Below, in pieces: positions 1 through 9,307 of a stretch of DNA of 64,000 nt; within the stretch, counting starts at the first letter, position 1; every line of letters starts with the position of its first letter. The DNA comes from Brachionus manjavacas (taxonomy: Eukaryota > Rotifera > Eurotatoria > Ploima > Brachionidae), in assembly GCA_019054805.1 (NCBI GenBank), contig JAHQIY010000015.1:752001-816000 (forward strand), read 5' to 3'. The translations under genes were made by a program, and so were the position numbers. The notes beneath the pieces are model-generated. The model worked only from the letters and a program-made list of their open reading frames with translations, did not search any database and had not been told where the DNA came from.

Positions 1-1402
1 GTTGATAGTAATTTGTGAAAAACTAGAAGTTTAAGTATTGGATTTTAGGCATGTCATGAACAAAAAACTAATTAAAATCTACTTTCTAAGTAAATAGAAG
101 AATTAATTTTTTAAATAGCGCTTGAATTTATTAAAAAATATTTCGAAAATTTAGCTTTTTCATATTTTTAACTATTCGGCATTTTTTTTGCTACAAATTG
201 GGGTTAACCCTAACAAAATGTTTTATTGTATTTTGATAAGAAAAATTTACGGCTATATCAGATAGTGAAACAATATTTCGATTTGTTCCATAAATAAAAA
301 ATAAATAAAAAAGTGGTATAGACATAAAATTTTAAATAATAATAAAAATTTTAAAAAAAATTTGATGATTTAAAACATGCGTATCCATTTCAATTGACGT
401 AAAAGATTCAAATTTTAAATTGGCATTTAATTCAAGATTGTTTCAGATTTCAAAGTAATAAATTCAAATGGAATCTTCAGATAAATTTAATCATCAAATT
501 AGGCATCGTCATTTTCAAAATCAATAATTTCATCCCAAGACATTAGGATTTATTTGATAAAATTGTCTCTATTACTCATATGGATTATCGTAATAGAATA
601 TAAAAAAATAAATAATATTTTTTTTTAATCAAATTGTTAATGAAAAAATTTAGATTTTATGAAAATAAAAATTTAAAATGAAAAAAAAAATTTTTTTCAA
701 ACACTTATTTAAACATTATTTAAAAATAAAAAAATAAGTATGGGTTAAAATAATTGAAAAAAAAAAGCTTTTAAACAATTATTATATTGTCAGATATTGA
801 ACCAGCATTGAATTAATGAAATGGTCGAAATTTTTTTCTTAACAAAAAAATTTCCGTGAATAATTAAAAAAAAAGTTCCAATTTATGTTCGGGGACTTGG
901 GAAACCTTTGGTATGGCTGAGCCAACATTGTTTGCTTAAGTCTTCATGTCGCACAAGGCTCGAAAAATTCTTCTCGTTGCCATGGCAACATATTAAATCA
1001 AAGACTGCATATGCATGTTATATTTTCTCGGTATTATTCTCACTTAAAATATGTTGTGTTTGGTTGCTATTATTCTATAAAAAAATTTTAATAATTAAAA
1101 CGGCATAGCATAATTACTTTGTTTAAAAATTGAAAAATTGAAGTAAAATTTGGGACTAGATTATGTTTTAAACTTGGGCAATCTGAGAAAAAAATCCAAC
1201 AAGGTCAATGGAATTTCTGAGCCACTTTTTTTTCTGTTTAGAAAACTATTAACCAACTAAACCTTTTTTCTTTTTTAAATTTGCTTTAGTTATTAAAAAA
1301 AAATGGTAATTAGAAAAAACTTGTGAACAAAGAAATCACAAACGAAAAAAGGCATTTAATGAAAAAAAAATTGATTACAAGAAAAAAAAGTGAGCTTTAA
1401 CA
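1..1402. other. Upstream flank of the kinase gene, no gene seen
   Basis: AT-rich sequence with no credible coding exon on either strand. The stretch around 890-1060 is less AT-rich than its surroundings and contains the X-box listed separately, so it is the likely promoter or 5' UTR zone of the kinase that starts at 1403. A 66-codon open frame at 908-1108 has no family resemblance and overlaps the X-box; I treat it as chance. Confidence 0.5.
976..989. promoter_or_regulatory. Perfect palindromic RFX X-box
   Basis: The 14 bases GTTGCCATGGCAAC form a perfect inverted repeat and match the RFX/DAF-19 X-box consensus (GTNRCC, short spacer, RGYAAC) at every position. It lies about 413 bp before the start codon of an RCK-family kinase. 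RFX factors are known to drive ciliary genes through such sites; the C. elegans orthologue dyf-5 is a ciliary kinase. The site is seen directly; that it controls this gene is inference. Confidence 0.8.
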
Positions 1403-4400
1403 ATGGAACAATACAATATTCAAAAACAACTAGGCGATGGCACTTTCGGAAGTGTTCTTTTAGCCACAGTGAAAAAATCTGGCGAAAAAGTCGCCATCAA
1501 GCGCATGAAACAGAAGTATTACTCGTGGGAGGAATGCATGTCTCTCCGAGAAGTGAAAGTAAGCTTTTGTTGAAATTATCCGATTTAATTTTTCTAAGAA
1601 AAAATTTTTTTAGTCTTTACAAAAGCTGCGACATCCGAACATCATTCGTTTATTTGAGGTGATTCGCGAGGACAATAATTTGTACATGATTTTTGAATAT
1701 ATGAACGAAAACCTCTACGAATTGATGAAAAAAAGGTAGTGTTGACAAAAGAAAACTATTTTTAATTTTTTTTTTATTTTAAAAGAGATCGGCTCTTTCC
1801 AGAAAACAGTGTCAAAAGTATTTTATTCCAAGTGATGCAAGGCCTTGGTTATATGCACAAATACGGTTTGTAAACAAAATTTAAACTAATCTCGGTCGCT
1901 TTTTTTGAATTTTTTTTGAATTTTTTATAAACTTTTTTTTTTAAATTTAAATATTTATTTAATTAGAAAAATATATTTTAAAGCTAAAATTTAGTTTCTT
2001 CAGCTAACTTGATGCTAGCATAATTTTGGCTCAAGGCTGAACTTTTCCAAGCTATTTTGATTGTGGTGCCGTCAAATTTTTTCAATCTTTTTAATTAATT
2101 TTTTAATCATTTACGTCACGCAAAATGACATAAAATTAGAATGGAAAATAGTGGAAAAACAACTTTTATTTTATAAGACTGTGTTTGAGTCAAAAATTTT
2201 TAAGATAAATTTTTAAAGAGAAAAAATTATTTTAATTTTTTAAAAAAATCAAAATAATAAATTTCACAAATTTTTATTTTTTTTAGTACAAGATAAATTA
2301 TTTAAAAAAATAATTTTCAATTTTTTTTAAAGTACAGTTTGAAATTAAATGATTTTCATTTAAAAAATAAAAAGCTATTTGAATCAATTGAATTTAATTT
2401 TCAGGTAAAATTATCAGTAAATTATATGTTCTAAGTAAAAGCTTTTATTTTCTTTCAAATAAACTTTGTATAGAAAAATAAAACTTTTAAAAGTAGCCGA
2501 GCTCAATGAAAATAAACTAATTTGTAAAGCTTCTAAAATGTTTATTTAAGGTTTTTTTCACCGTGATCTTAAGCCCGAAAATTTATTATGCAATGGAGCA
2601 GAGTTAATCAAAATAGCTGACTTTGGTCTAGCGCGAGAAATACGTTCTCGTCCGCCATATACTGATTACGTTTCAACTAGATGGTATAGGGCGCCAGAAA
2701 TCTTGCTCAGATCAACCACATACAACTCACCTATAGACATATGGGCTGTTGGTTGCATTGCGGCTGAATGCTACACTTTACGGCCACTTTTTCCCGGTAA
2801 CAGTGAAATAGACCAGCTATTTCGTATTTGTAGTGTTCTAGGCACTCCGACCAAAGTTTGTCTCAAACAATTAGAAATGATTTTTTGTTCTAATTAAACT
2901 CTAAATTAAGGAAGAATGGCCTGAAGGAATGACTTTAGCAGCAAAAATGAATATTAAATGGAATCGTTGTGTTAAAAATGACCTTAAAAAGCTCATACCA
3001 AACGCCAGTCATGATGCCATAAACTTGATCGAGTCCACTTTCTTATGGGACCCGAAACGAAGACCCACTGTTGCACAGGTTGAACAATTTTTAATTAAAA
3101 AAGTTTAAAAAAGGTAACCCTGACTTATTATCAAATAACCTACTATAAGTGAGACAATTTAGTATATGAACTATTTTTTTTTAAAACTAGATTTCAGGAA
3201 CTAAAGAGTAATCACCAAAAAAACTTCTTAAATGATATCAAATTCTTATTTTTTTCTAATTTTTTTTTAAGTTGAATTATAATTTATTGCAGCAAAAACT
3301 GATGTAAAAATTATTTATTTTTTTTTCTCTTAAGATTACTTTGGACCACCAAATGGAGTTTTAAATTTGACTTGTTTTTAAAAAGTTCTGAAACTTAAAT
3401 TGATATTTGAATAATTTAAATTTTAAAATTTTTCAGACAAACTCGAAAATGAAAATTTAGAAATACAATTGAATTTTTTTAAAAGATTAATTGCATATTA
3501 AGAGTCAATAGTTTAGAGTTTTTTTATTTAAAATTAAAATTTATCTAAATTAAAAAAATATCAAAGAATTAATGGCTTAATTGAAAAAATTTATTTTTCG
3601 ATTTAAAAAAAATTCAATACTTATAAGAAAAAATGATTTAGTTTCTTTAGTACTATTCGACCGGTTTTTCCTTAGACCAGTTGACCGAACTGGACCGGTT
3701 TTTAATCTAAATTCTTGTCGAAATCTAAAAATATTTAAATGTTATTTAAAATGGAGATCTATTTCTTTCTGTTAGTAAATTTTTTTCTTCTTTAAAATAC
3801 CCTTTTTTATTTAAAAAAATTTTGCTAGTCTAAAACTTATTTAGTTAATTTAAAAAAAAATTGATATTATTAAAGGGCAAAATTTAGAAATATTTACATT
3901 TTTACATTTTCATATTTTTAGATTTTTTGTGCAATATTTCAGTAAATTTTAAAAAACTCACCCAATTATTTAAAAATCAAAATGAAAAATATAAATTTCG
4001 AAATATTGAACAAAATTTCTAAAAATGTAAAAATAAAAAATTTAAAATTTTTAAAATTTTGCTTATTAGAGTGACTAATTTAAAAATTTATTTATTAAAG
4101 ATTTAATTTGAACAATTTGAACAAAAAAAAGTGAAATAAAAAGTGATAAACAATTGCACTTTCGGAACGATGAATACAAATGAATTCAGTACACTTTAAT
4201 TATCTTAAGTTCTTAAAATACGCTTTTAAAAACCAGTTTGAAAATCAGAACCGGTTTGCCAGCCCTTCTAGTTCTTGTATTAAAATAGTCTAAAACTTGC
4301 TCTCCAAATGAAATCAATTGAAACAGTTTTTTATTTTTCCTAGTTATTACCTAAATAATTCTAGATTCAACACTAGTAAAATCTGAAGATTATTTTAATT

Positions 4401-5802
4401 TTTCAAAAAAATTAAAAAAATTTTATTTTTGAAAACTGAAGTTTATTTTTATTCTAATTTTTATTCCTTCAAATTGATAAACTGCTGAAATTTTATGGTA
4501 AACAGACTTTAAAGATTGAAAATATGATCAATTTTACCTTTTTAAAAAAAAAAATTCTTAAATATTTTCTATTTTAATGTTATTAGTGCCTAAAGCATTC
4601 ATATTTCAATGGTCTTCAAGAAATGCCAAATAACCTTACTAGCAACAAACCAAACGAAATAGTGCAAGAAGTGGAAGATGACTATGTAAAACCATCCAAA
4701 ATATTGAATAACAAAACCATTAATCAACCAGCACCCAAAATTCAAAAACCTGTAAAAGACTCAATTGATGACATTGATGACATGCTGAGAGACTTTGAGA
4801 AAAAGTACAACAAACCCAAAGAACCGAACAAACCTCCAGTTTCGAATAGCTCGGCCAAAAACATACCAAAGCCAAATGTGTCCTCAGCAAATCCAACCAC
4901 TCCGGCCCGAGTTCACAAAACCCCTAAAAACCAGCAATTTAAAGACTCGCTTTTGGCTCAGTTCAAAGATGACCCCATATTTGCCGAGCTGATGGCGTCT
5001 AAGCCTAGCAAAAATGCCTCACCGACCAGAAATGATGCAAAACGACCAAGCATTGCCTCCACGCAACCGAGAACATCCATTTTTGAACCGGCCAAAGGCC
5101 CCATAATAGAGACAAGCTTACAAAAGAAAAAATTCGATGATTTATTCAACAATTTGTCAAATATTGACAATAAACCTGCTGCAAAGCAGATCAAACCATT
5201 CGATGACTTGCTCGAAGAGGAAAATAATAAGCCTTACCGAAGCCATAAGCATAATATTTACAACGAGCCGACTAATACTGAAATTTTGGCGGCCAAACGT
5301 CGGGTCAATCCGATCAAATCGGCTCGCAAAGACATACTAGAGGAAATATTTGGTGACGATTTATACGCTAGCATACGCGTTAATCCATCAGCAAATGGTA
5401 AAAAAAATCCTGCCAATACAAACAAGTACGAGGATTTGTTTCCAGGACAAAAGACAAAAAACAAGGATCTTTTCGATGGAATCCGCGAGTTCGAGGCAAC
5501 TTTTATTAAAGATGATAACAAAAGTGACAATTTGTTTAATACAAGGCGATCTCGTTTTTTGCCCAGCGGTAAGAGAGATCCAAATCAGCATACAAGTGCC
5601 AAGGGCGGGTGGACACAATCTCCATTCAAAATTAATATTGGCAACTCTGATGCCAATAAGCAGTCAAGCTATGTACCTTCATTTATCGGAAGTGGAAAGA
5701 CAAATGAAAAAAAAAGTATTTATTTTTTTAATTAATCTTTTTATTATTAAATTTAATTTTATCCGCCTGTCTATCTTAGTTTTAACAAAAATGGTTAATT
5801 AA
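1403..5802 (+). CDS. CILK1/MAK: RCK-family (CILK1/MAK) ciliary Ser/Thr kinase
   Basis: Kinase of the MAK/CILK1/MOK family, which limits cilium length and acts on intraflagellar transport. Exons: 1403-1558, 1614-1735, 1786-1865, 2551-2855, 2911-3078, 4587-5715, and probably 5780-5802 (660 aa; reading on in exon 6 to 5735 gives 659 aa). The glycine loop GDGTFG is at 11-16, the VAIK lysine at 33, HRD at 123-125, DFG at 143-145, and the activation motif TDY at 157-159, the same numbering I recall for human CILK1. Exon 5 ends in RRPTVAQ and exon 6 opens with CLKHSYF, the normal end of the catalytic domain, followed by a long basic, Asn/Pro/Ser-rich tail with a near-terminal YVPSF motif. Introns 3 and 5 are long (685 and 1508 bp); the others are 50-64 bp. 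The last splice is the least certain part. Confidence 0.92.
3655..4268. repeat. Possible hAT-like MITE remnant in kinase intron 5
   Basis: Within the 1508-bp intron the motif ACCGGTTTTT occurs twice near 3660-3705. A terminus-like stretch at 4230-4267 reads, on the minus strand, AAGGGCTGGCAAACCGG, similar to the CAGGG(C/G)TGGC ends common in hAT elements. I could not find the matching left end, so boundaries are approximate. Confidence 0.22.
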
Positions 5803-6582
5803 ATGATTCAATAGATGTAAAATTTTAGATTTAAATTTTGTTTATTTTTTTTTCAATTTTATTTTTGAAATTTTTTGAAGAGTCTCGAGTAAAAATATCT
5901 AGTGTTAAATTTTCAAAGTTTAATGATGATTCATACAAAAAATTGTGACACTAGATTTTTTTGGACTGAATTTAGAGACTTGGTAATTTTTGGAATATGA
6001 AATGAGCTAATTGATCTATTTGGTAGAAATTTAAAATATCATTTTCAAATGAGTTTTCTTTGTCATAAAACCTGAAAGAATTTTTTAAAATATTTTTATA
6101 TTAAAATATAGATTAAAATTTTAAAATATTTTATTAATTTGACCAAAATTTATCTCAGATATTCCAACAATTATTTGAATGACTAACAAACTAAAATAAA
6201 AGTAGCTTTTTTTAATTTTTTGACCATTTTCTTCAAAAGCTCATTAACTTTTTAACTTTTTTTACTAATGATTTCTGTTTAGTTTATCCTTCAACACTTG
6301 CTTTTAAACAGCCTGCACCATTGATATTCAATCGAAAATGAATGCCGACTTTTTTTTTAATCAAATAATCGGGTCCGGATCAATCAAATAAAATTTTTGT
6401 TAAATATAATTTTTATATGTAAAATTAAACATTTTTTTAATTGAACTTGATAAACTTTTTATACAATATCAAGTCACTTTGTTGAAATAATATTTATACT
6501 TATTTAAAAAAAAAATTTACAGGGGTTTTATTATTGAAAATAAAAAATCTTAAATTTTATCTTTTTTTTTTTATTAATTTGT
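5803..6582. other. Convergent 3' intergenic spacer, no gene seen
   Basis: About 780 bp of AT-rich sequence between the kinase (+) and LSM8 (-), which converge here. It should hold both 3' UTRs and polyadenylation sites; several AATAAA strings are present but are uninformative at this composition. Confidence 0.5.
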
Positions 6583-6971
6583 TCAATGTACTATAGGGAG
6601 TAGTGGATCGGCACGGACATGTGTTAAATCAATTTGTCTGTCAATATCTTCATCGACTTCGCCAACAATCGCCCTTTTAAAATAAATAAATATTTTTTCT
6701 CTATTTTTTTTCCATTCTTACACATTATCTCCCCGAATGACAAATACTCCAAGTTTGACTTGCTCAACTCCGTTCATGGAGAAAACTCGCTCGTAACTAT
6801 CATCTAGGACAAGATTTATGGTTTGGTCAAATCCTCTCAATACTCCGAGAATAATACGACCGTCCGAGGTTATCACACTCACGGTGTCTATTAATTTTCT
6901 ATAATTAGATAAAATATTTAATTTTTTATCAAAAGGTTACGATTTACAAGGGGCTCCAGAACATTGGACAT
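6583..6971 (-). CDS. LSM8: U6 snRNA-associated Sm-like protein LSm8
   Basis: Component of the nuclear LSm2-8 ring that binds the 3' end of U6 snRNA and supports splicing and U6 stability. Minus-strand exons: 6971-6941, 6887-6722, 6673-6583, giving 95 aa (human LSM8 is 96). The joined protein starts with an LEPLVNHTVSVITSDGR segment (Sm1: strands around VITSDGR and GVLRGFDQTINLVLDD) and has the Sm2 signature VFVIRGDNVAIVGEVDED. The GDNV core and the acidic VDEDID stretch are diagnostic of LSm8. A longer reading of exon 2 through an earlier acceptor would break the frame, which fixes the acceptor at 6888. The gene is divergent from nothing nearby; SPTLC1 ends 677 bp beyond its start on the same strand. 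Confidence 0.93.
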
Positions 6972-7648
6972 AATGAATTTTAAAATTTATTTTTTTCTAA
7001 AATTTTTAATTTCTTTTAAAATTTTTAAAGCAAATAAAATATCAAAAGCTATAAGCGAATTTTATTAAGTCCTCTTGTTTTAAATCTAATCATATTTAAC
7101 TTTACCTTTCCAATCATTAGTGTTGAATGTCATCAATTTTTTTATTATTTTTTTATTTAATTCTTTTTCATTTTCAAAAGAAGAAATATTTTTGTTAATT
7201 TTAATCACTAATTATTTAAATTCATTTGGCTTTTAAAAACAATTTTTGATGGTTCAAGACAAAATAAATGTCGATTATTTCATAATTTTTTAAATTTTTT
7301 TTCAATAGACTCGGACCTTCTCAATATTGAGAATTAAAAATAATTAAAATTAAATTGAAATCGATCCAAAAAGGTAACAAATTGGTCTACAATATTGAAA
7401 AAGTTTTCCATTGAGTATTTTAAACTTAAAATTTTATTTCCATTTAACTATTTTATTTAATAAAATTTTTTTTAAAAAAGCAAACAATTTGGCTAAAAAT
7501 TGAAAATAACTTGTCAGCATGAAAAAGACTTCTAATTTTGATTAGAAAAAGGTATTTAGTCTCTTTAAAATCCAAATCGTTTCTAAGGTTTTTCGATAAA
7601 ACGAATTTTCATAATTAAATAAAATTTTAAATTTTGATACAGCCAAGT
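6972..7648. other. Spacer between LSM8 and SPTLC1, no gene seen
   Basis: 677 bp of AT-rich sequence between the LSM8 start and the SPTLC1 stop, both on the minus strand. It must contain the LSM8 promoter and the SPTLC1 3' UTR. No other coding or structured feature was seen. Confidence 0.45.
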
Positions 7649-9307
7649 TTAATTGATGGCTTGCTCTAAAACGTCAACTATTTGCTGAATCTCGGCTTCG
7701 GTGAGGTCACAATTTACCGAAATTCTAATGCTTGGTTTAGAACTGAACTTTTCCTCTTTTAAATATCGCGCTACGGTCAATGAAACTGCTTTTGATTGAG
7801 CAAAGTCAACAATTTTTTCCAATCTATCCAGAGTATTTTCGAAACTAAGTCTTACATGCTTTACAGGTGAAATGTCAATGCCCGCTACAGTATAGTTATT
7901 GAGTGCTTTTAATTTCTGATGCATAATTTTACATTTTCGTTCCAATTCTGGAAAAATTTCATCCTGTTTTTCCTCGATTATATTCAAAGCCTCAATAGCA
8001 GATACGGCCAAGAGTGGTGGTAGAGAAGCTGAAAAGCAGTAGCCTTGACCGCTCAATACTTGATGCTGAACCACATAGGAACTTCCGACACAAAAGCCAC
8101 CAACTGAGCCCAGCGACATTTCCATTGATCCAGAAATTAAATCTATTTTCTCTCTCTTTAAAAAATTCAAAAAATTCAAAATTGTCGTGTTCATTTCACA
8201 TTTTTCTTACCGGAACATTAAAGTATTCTGTCACTCCTCTTCCTGTTTTACCAATTGTGGCAAACGAGACACTCTCGTCCAAAAATATCCTATACTTGTA
8301 TTTGTATTTTAGTTCGACCATTTTTGGCAATGGACAAAGATCACCATGATTCATATACAAGCCTTCGATGACCAAAAATTTTCTCGTTACTTTTGCTTTT
8401 TTGGGATTTTTTTTGTCCGCATCTTCTTGTTCCTTTAACAGTCGTTCCAAGTCTTCAACATCATTATGCTTAAAATATCTAACATCTGAGCGTGAGGCAA
8501 CTATTCCTTTTTGAATGGCAAAATGAACACCCTCATCAGCAAAAATTATATCACCACGTTTTGAATACGCTGGTATAGCGCTGGCAATTGTGGAAAAGCC
8601 GTATGAATAAATGATTCCCTCTTCTACATTAAAGTATTTGGCTAATCTTTGCTCAAGCTCCAAATGGACATCTTAAGACATTTTTTAAAGTTTGTTATTT
8701 AATTGATTTTTTTAGTTTTTTAAAATTTTCTAATCTTCAAAAAAAATACCTATTGTTCCGTAAAAGCCTCTAGGACCACATGAACCTACACCATATTTTT
8801 GAATAGATTTTATGGCCATTTCCTTCCAGAACAAAAAAATTATTTTCTTTTAAATTATTTTAATATAATAGTACACTTATTTTTTCGTTTCCAACCATGT
8901 TTAAAAAATTGAACGAAGCCACATTTAGTGATTTGACACCATCAACTATGGCATACTTGGCAACTGGTCTAGATGGAATAAAATTAGTGGTCAGCTATTC
9001 AATAGCAAAATTTAAGTTACCCATCGACCACTCTGGGCTTGATGATTGACTCTCTGAAATCATAATTTGGCACCAATGGTTCCGGGGTCCATTCCTCTAA
9101 TAGTTCTTTTTTATCCTAATAAGAAAAAAATGAGATTTTTTTATTCAAATTAAGAAAAAAATAAACTTTTTCTGTGAGCTTGTTTTTTTGAGGTGGACTA
9201 TAGCTCTTTCTGAATATTAGCCAAAGAATCCAGACAAGTAGAAACGCTTCAACTACCAAGTGATAAAATGGCGCGTTTTTGACATAGTCCGGGATCAGAT
9301 CGAGCAT
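7649..9307 (-). CDS. SPTLC1: Serine palmitoyltransferase subunit 1
   Basis: Non-catalytic large subunit of the ER enzyme that condenses serine with palmitoyl-CoA, the first step of sphingolipid synthesis. Minus-strand exons: 9307-9167, 9115-9021, 8968-8875, 8822-8750, 8671-8211, 8155-7649, giving 456 aa (human 473). An N-terminal membrane segment lies at about residues 14-36 ([19 protein letters not shown]). The alpha-oxoamine synthase fold follows: [14 protein letters not shown] around 119-131, where Cys125 matches human Cys133, then [20 protein letters not shown] and [16 protein letters not shown]. As expected for subunit 1, the position of the PLP lysine of SPTLC2 is not a lysine ([12 protein letters not shown]). 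The catalytic partner SPTLC2 is not in the window. The gene is divergent from the RANBP3-like gene across 604 bp. Confidence 0.95.

Follow-up and report, generated by a model that had tools for sequence, protein, structure and literature searches.

A perfect X-box before an RCK-type kinase gene in the rotifer Brachionus manjavacas and its probable place in the RFX-ciliary circuit

The stretch of Brachionus manjavacas DNA studied here (64,000 nucleotides of contig JAHQIY010000015.1, positions 752,001 to 816,000, hereafter the window) carries near its left end a perfect palindromic RFX X-box, GTTGCCATGGCAAC, at 976..989, followed on the plus strand by the gene for a protein kinase of apparent RCK (MAK/ICK) type. 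This arrangement raises the question of whether the motif is a working RFX site and, if it is, which gene it serves and whether that gene belongs to a wider set of ciliary genes under the same control. The original prediction, made from the letters of the window, held that such a match is unlikely by chance and suggested that the link between RFX factors and ciliary genes holds in this lineage. We considered the frequency of the motif in the whole genome, the genes on either side of the window site, the genes near all other perfect copies, and the motif content of promoters chosen by gene family.

The window site and the frequency of its motif

The X-box consensus, as set out in the available part of PMC10530576, is GTNRCC N0-3 RGYAAC, that is, two inverted half-sites. 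The window site, with GTTGCC and GGCAAC separated by AT, fits it exactly; the 14-bp palindrome named in the original prediction is present letter for letter at 976..989, and the distance to the kinase, put there at about 413 bp, is 413 bp from the end of the X-box to the predicted ATG. When up to three mismatches are allowed, this is still the sole match to GTTGCCATGGCAAC in the window, which has a GC content of 26.5%. Shuffled versions of the window gave a mean of 0.73 matches at the same tolerance, with at least one match in 52 of 100 shuffles, and because such loose matches are common in shuffled sequence, the significance of the window site lies in its exact match.

The perfect motif is strongly over-represented in the genome searched (114.17 Mb in 61 contigs), which holds 37 copies of GTTGCCATGGCAAC against 0.02-0.05 expected from base composition at 25-30% GC. 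If coding sequence is taken as 30 Mb and noncoding sequence as 84 Mb, Markov models (orders 2-4) fitted to the fetched loci after masking of the motif give expectations of 0.09-0.25 and 0.02-0.06 perfect sites, respectively. The pattern GTTGSSATSSCAAC stands for 16 words that share one base composition; a search with it gave no site beyond these 37, the other 15 words having no copy genome-wide, and its reversed control returned 2 matches. These counts bear out the claim that the window match is unlikely by chance. Allowing up to one mismatch raised the count to 98 sites, whereas the reversed control had 4. Three variants, GTTTCC (24), GTTGTC (16) and GTTACC (13), make up 53 of the 61 one-mismatch sites, a concentration that is expected if binding tolerates certain changes only; the 53 were drawn from 93 rows, for which the reversed control stands at 42.

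We consider it very improbable that the window site is a chance palindrome without function. The placing of 13 of the 37 perfect sites in long open frames, several of them in genes not known as ciliary, would agree with such an origin, but the excess of copies over expectation, the empty control words and the X-boxes found before ciliary genes (discussed below) all argue against it. Hardly credible at all is the idea that the word is frequent through being carried by a dispersed repeat or a transposon end. Two pairs of sites (L010/L039 and L023/L037) do share their flanks, as duplicated coding sequence, but the 30-bp flanks of the other sites, compared by eye and with the right flank of the window site reduced to one base, have nothing in common beyond a frequent outer G/C, and the degenerate X-boxes before the tektin and IFT57 genes also sit in unrelated flanks. 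Both of these explanations were set aside on the word counts, the controls and the unrelated flanks. Since a perfect copy is hardly ever expected by chance in this genome, each one points to a candidate gene.

The distribution of perfect and near-perfect sites over the contigs was also inspected. Contig C4 (8.9 Mb) has none of the 90 sites, against 7.0 expected by its length, and contig C3 (9.8 Mb) has two, against 7.7 expected. These two contigs may be gene-poor or otherwise unusual.

The kinase gene and its divergent neighbour

The kinase gene model occupies 1403..3108 on the plus strand and encodes 286 aa in five predicted exons (1403-1558, 1614-1735, 1786-1865, 2551-2855 and 2911-3108, the stop codon included), with 990..1402 as the presumed promoter and 5' UTR as read from the sequence. 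The protein kinase domain (Pkinase) is matched at E 3.4e-72. We take the gene to be an RCK kinase on the signature YSWEEC..LREVKSL, and its activation loop carries TDY, the form that this loop has in MAK and ICK. The model fits the test of a CMGC domain with TXY, the activation-loop motif of the RCK kinase family described in the available portion of PMC3820702. A search of the PDB gave CDK2 as the top matches, and the best 60 of 352 matches comprise CDK-type kinases only, with no MAK or ICK among them; as the best 60 are all of CDK type, the RCK name rests on the signature motifs.

RCK kinases carry a non-catalytic tail at the C-terminus. The model, with its exon 2911-3108, ends right behind the catalytic domain, and the end of this last exon is uncertain, there being a GT donor after the TVAQ codons. 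No continuation was found in the forward frames of 3001-9000, searched with one pattern only. The gene model suggests that the tail is either encoded by later, overlooked exons or else short or lacking. Downstream on the kinase strand, 4623-5735 contains a 370-aa open frame without a Pfam match. Within the presumed promoter region (990..1402), an acceptor-like pyrimidine-rich stretch ends in TTTGCTTTAG at about 1290, which is compatible with a putative intron in the 5' UTR or a trans-splice site.

The kinase is not the only gene that the X-box could serve. On the left, just outside the window, lies the first exon of a G-alpha gene on the minus strand, which points away from the X-box and has its ATG 1170 bp from it (Pfam G-alpha, E 1.2e-11, under the family cut-off as the first exon alone was given). 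A palindromic X-box has no direction, and a real RFX site at this place might thus act on the divergent G-alpha gene, or on both genes. The 413-bp gap itself counts against control of the kinase, since most of the gaps at the other ciliary genes with perfect sites are shorter (56-269 bp). We nevertheless regard service to the G-alpha gene, alone or together with the kinase, as improbable, because the kinase lies nearly three times closer to the X-box and an X-box is known from Caenorhabditis in front of dyf-5, a gene of RCK type. We infer that the kinase, rather than its divergent neighbour, is the target.

Genes near the perfect sites and the promoter comparison

The 37 perfect sites divide into 13 inside open frames of at least 200 aa and 24 outside such frames. 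Seven of the latter precede genes of ciliary or centriolar families, with 56-632 bp between the X-box and the predicted ATG. Besides the window kinase, these are a DUF4464 gene, which we take to be CFAP299 (56 bp; E 4.3e-52, the first frame giving 1.1e-5, just under the cut-off); an NYD-SP28 gene, in our view probably DRC2 (78 bp; E 2.4e-25); CCDC39 (89 bp), for which Pfam CCDC39 is matched at E 2.4e-28 on the second frame, the ATG-bearing first frame being one that we assign by similarity; a PIH1 gene on contig C6 (110 bp; E 8.1e-9 and 2.0e-5 on two exons), whose first exon was positioned by eye; a CCDC92-domain gene (269 bp; E 9e-13); and a CDKL kinase gene (632 bp; best PDB match CDKL2, E 7.9e-53). 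PIH1 proteins help in dynein assembly, and CCDC92 is centriolar. The gap at the window kinase is larger than five of these six, and only that of the CDKL gene exceeds it.

Most of the perfect sites outside long frames (17 of 24) have no tie to a known ciliary gene. At three of them the predicted ATG of an uncharacterised gene follows after 63 bp (L024 2540-4951), 69 bp (L040 138-1427) and 76 bp (L013 2551-4926). None of the three genes has a Pfam match, and L024 and L040 have no PDB match at E up to 0.01; with their X-boxes, they are candidate new ciliary genes. The site at L007 lies 701 bp before the predicted ATG of an alpha-kinase gene that is presumably eEF2K-like. At L008 the site has the end of a polycystin-type channel frame just to its left, at L029 it falls where a protein kinase frame ends, at L022 it has a 3-HAO gene nearby, and at L026 it lies within a coiled-coil region; the L006 site lies between frames, of which a distant one alone gave a match, to HSP70. 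Two perfect sites lie beside a cyclin frame at L028, and at six loci (L009, L011, L014, L016, L032 and L035) inspection of the open frames yielded no gene name.

The L028 locus holds three X-boxes in 444 bp (L028:1279-1722; G000 C14:1295265-1295708), two of them perfect and one GTTGTCATGGCAAC, each flanked by the outer G and C; they lie either inside the cyclin gene or downstream of it. As a group they are a candidate for a strong RFX-responsive element.

Ciliary enrichment was assessed in the promoters of four tektin genes and IFT57, located by Pfam, with proteasome genes as the control. The ciliary genes were picked by family before their promoters were seen, and the scoring was set up after the first promoter listing. 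Each promoter was taken as the 600 bp upstream of the ATG and given the best half-site total out of 12. The tektins scored 11, 11, 9 and 10 and IFT57 scored 11, with sites 99-247 bp from the ATG; the sum, 52 of 60, compares with a mean of 37.7 and a maximum of 41 for 152 permuted half-sites. Eight proteasome promoters, whose 600-bp windows end 30 bases before the domain match and not at a mapped ATG, sum to 63 against a permuted mean of 62.1, and 67 of the 152 permutations reach 63. Scores of at least 11 occur in three of five ciliary and none of eight proteasome promoters (Fisher p 0.035). X-boxes precede several ciliary genes, whereas the proteasome genes examined have none in front. The test gives strong evidence on the motif but, with four of the five ciliary genes from one family, covers a narrow range of genes, and both sets are small.

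A comparison by coordinates used 90 listed sites, the 37 perfect ones and the 53 of the three one-mismatch variants. All 16 proteasome gene pieces compared, drawn from 27 proteasome matches so as to represent each apparent gene about once, are more than 35 kb from every listed site. In three of ten ciliary genes a listed site lies within about 310 bp of the domain match, namely the tektin on C19, IFT57 and the PIH1 gene on C6, the last of which was found through its X-box and is not an independent test. The other seven, comprising the tektins on C13, C9 and C8, BBS2, IFT46, RSPH3 and a second PIH1 gene, have no listed site nearby; weaker X-boxes are present in the promoters of these three tektins, and may also be present at the other four genes. 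The expectation that X-boxes would not be equally common away from ciliary genes was put to the test in these gene sets. It agrees with the promoter scores, which lie well above the permuted maximum for ciliary genes and show no excess for the proteasome, but the coordinate comparison, with three of ten ciliary genes, and the 13 of 37 perfect sites in long frames go against it.

The excess of perfect X-boxes in open frames is the least explained part of these data. The 13 sites in frames of at least 200 aa (L005, L010, L012, L019, L020, L021, L023, L027, L033, L034, L037, L039 and L041) compare with the 0.09-0.25 expected in the assumed 30 Mb of coding sequence, on the understanding that some of the frames may extend into introns, and they occur in all three reading phases. 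Four of them are the two duplicated pairs, L010/L039 and L023/L037. Laminin-G, LRR, RhoGEF/SH3, peritrophin, exportin and plexin-type domains were found in the frames at L019, L033, L034, L020, L027, L010 and L037, whereas no family was matched at L005, L012 or L021; L039 and L023 are named after their duplicates. Some of these genes, among them a plexin-like gene, laminin-G proteins and a Trio/kalirin-like RhoGEF, belong to adhesion or neuronal types. That such exonic sites in non-ciliary genes form a second RFX class beside the ciliary promoters is, in our estimate, rather unlikely; if selected for, the in-frame X-boxes would amount to a dual-use exonic RFX code. With 13 of 37 perfect sites in long open frames, a perfect motif alone does not make a gene a ciliary target.

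The RFX factor and comparison with known circuits

The genome encodes an RFX factor whose DNA-binding domain is close to the human one. The RFX DNA-binding domain was matched at one genomic place only (profile match, E 5.5e-32), in the same open frame as the RFX BCD domain (E 4.4e-98), and 60 of its 75 residues are identical to those of human RFX1 (1dp7). Together with the seven of 24 sites before genes of ciliary families and the promoter test, this domain largely supports the original suggestion of an RFX-ciliary link in this lineage.

On this evidence it is very probable that the window site is a working X-box, by which an RFX1/2/3-type factor activates the neighbouring RCK kinase gene in ciliated cells. 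A dimer of the animal's own factor would bind the two inverted half-sites at 976-989 and turn on the kinase gene in those cells, and the kinase would belong to a ciliary regulon whose members are scattered over the genome.

Similar arrangements are known in nematodes, where DYF-5 is an RCK kinase. Promoter X-boxes of dyf-5 and its orthologues in three Caenorhabditis species, that of C. elegans being under DAF-19 regulation, are described in the available part of PMC1794439. As far as that text goes, the rotifer gene is alike in having an X-box in the promoter of an RCK-type kinase, within a set of X-box ciliary genes. It differs in belonging to another lineage and in its site, a perfect palindrome 413 bp upstream, and genes of motile cilia (tektins, CCDC39, radial spoke 3) are present in the genome here as well. 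Together with plexin, laminin-G and peritrophin domains, the tektins and radial spoke 3 suggest an animal that has motile cilia or flagellated sperm. C. elegans cdkl-1 likewise has an X-box, according to the accessible portion of PMC5846859, which the CDKL gene here resembles with its perfect X-box 632 bp before the predicted ATG. In contrast to their C. elegans counterparts, both rotifer kinases are known from sequence alone.

Across animals, RFX factors are regarded as general regulators of ciliary genes (PMC2873420), and their role extends to choanoflagellates (PMC10530576). In the latter source a monomer-like RFX motif is given for 21.9% of conserved ciliome promoters in S. rosetta, together with mutant data. 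RFX motifs in the promoters of ciliary genes are common to that module, to the link in animals and to the rotifer; unlike the S. rosetta work, ours took in few genes and mostly full palindromes, by inspection of sequence. Our literature search found no rotifer report joining RFX, X-box and cilia, and no planarian report joining the X-box motif, RFX and ciliary genes.

The RFX-ciliary link itself has long been known in animals, and the window site is a well-supported member of that known circuit. What the present locus and its counterparts add is that the circuit, including its RCK and CDKL kinases, can be read straight from the compact, AT-rich genome of an animal.
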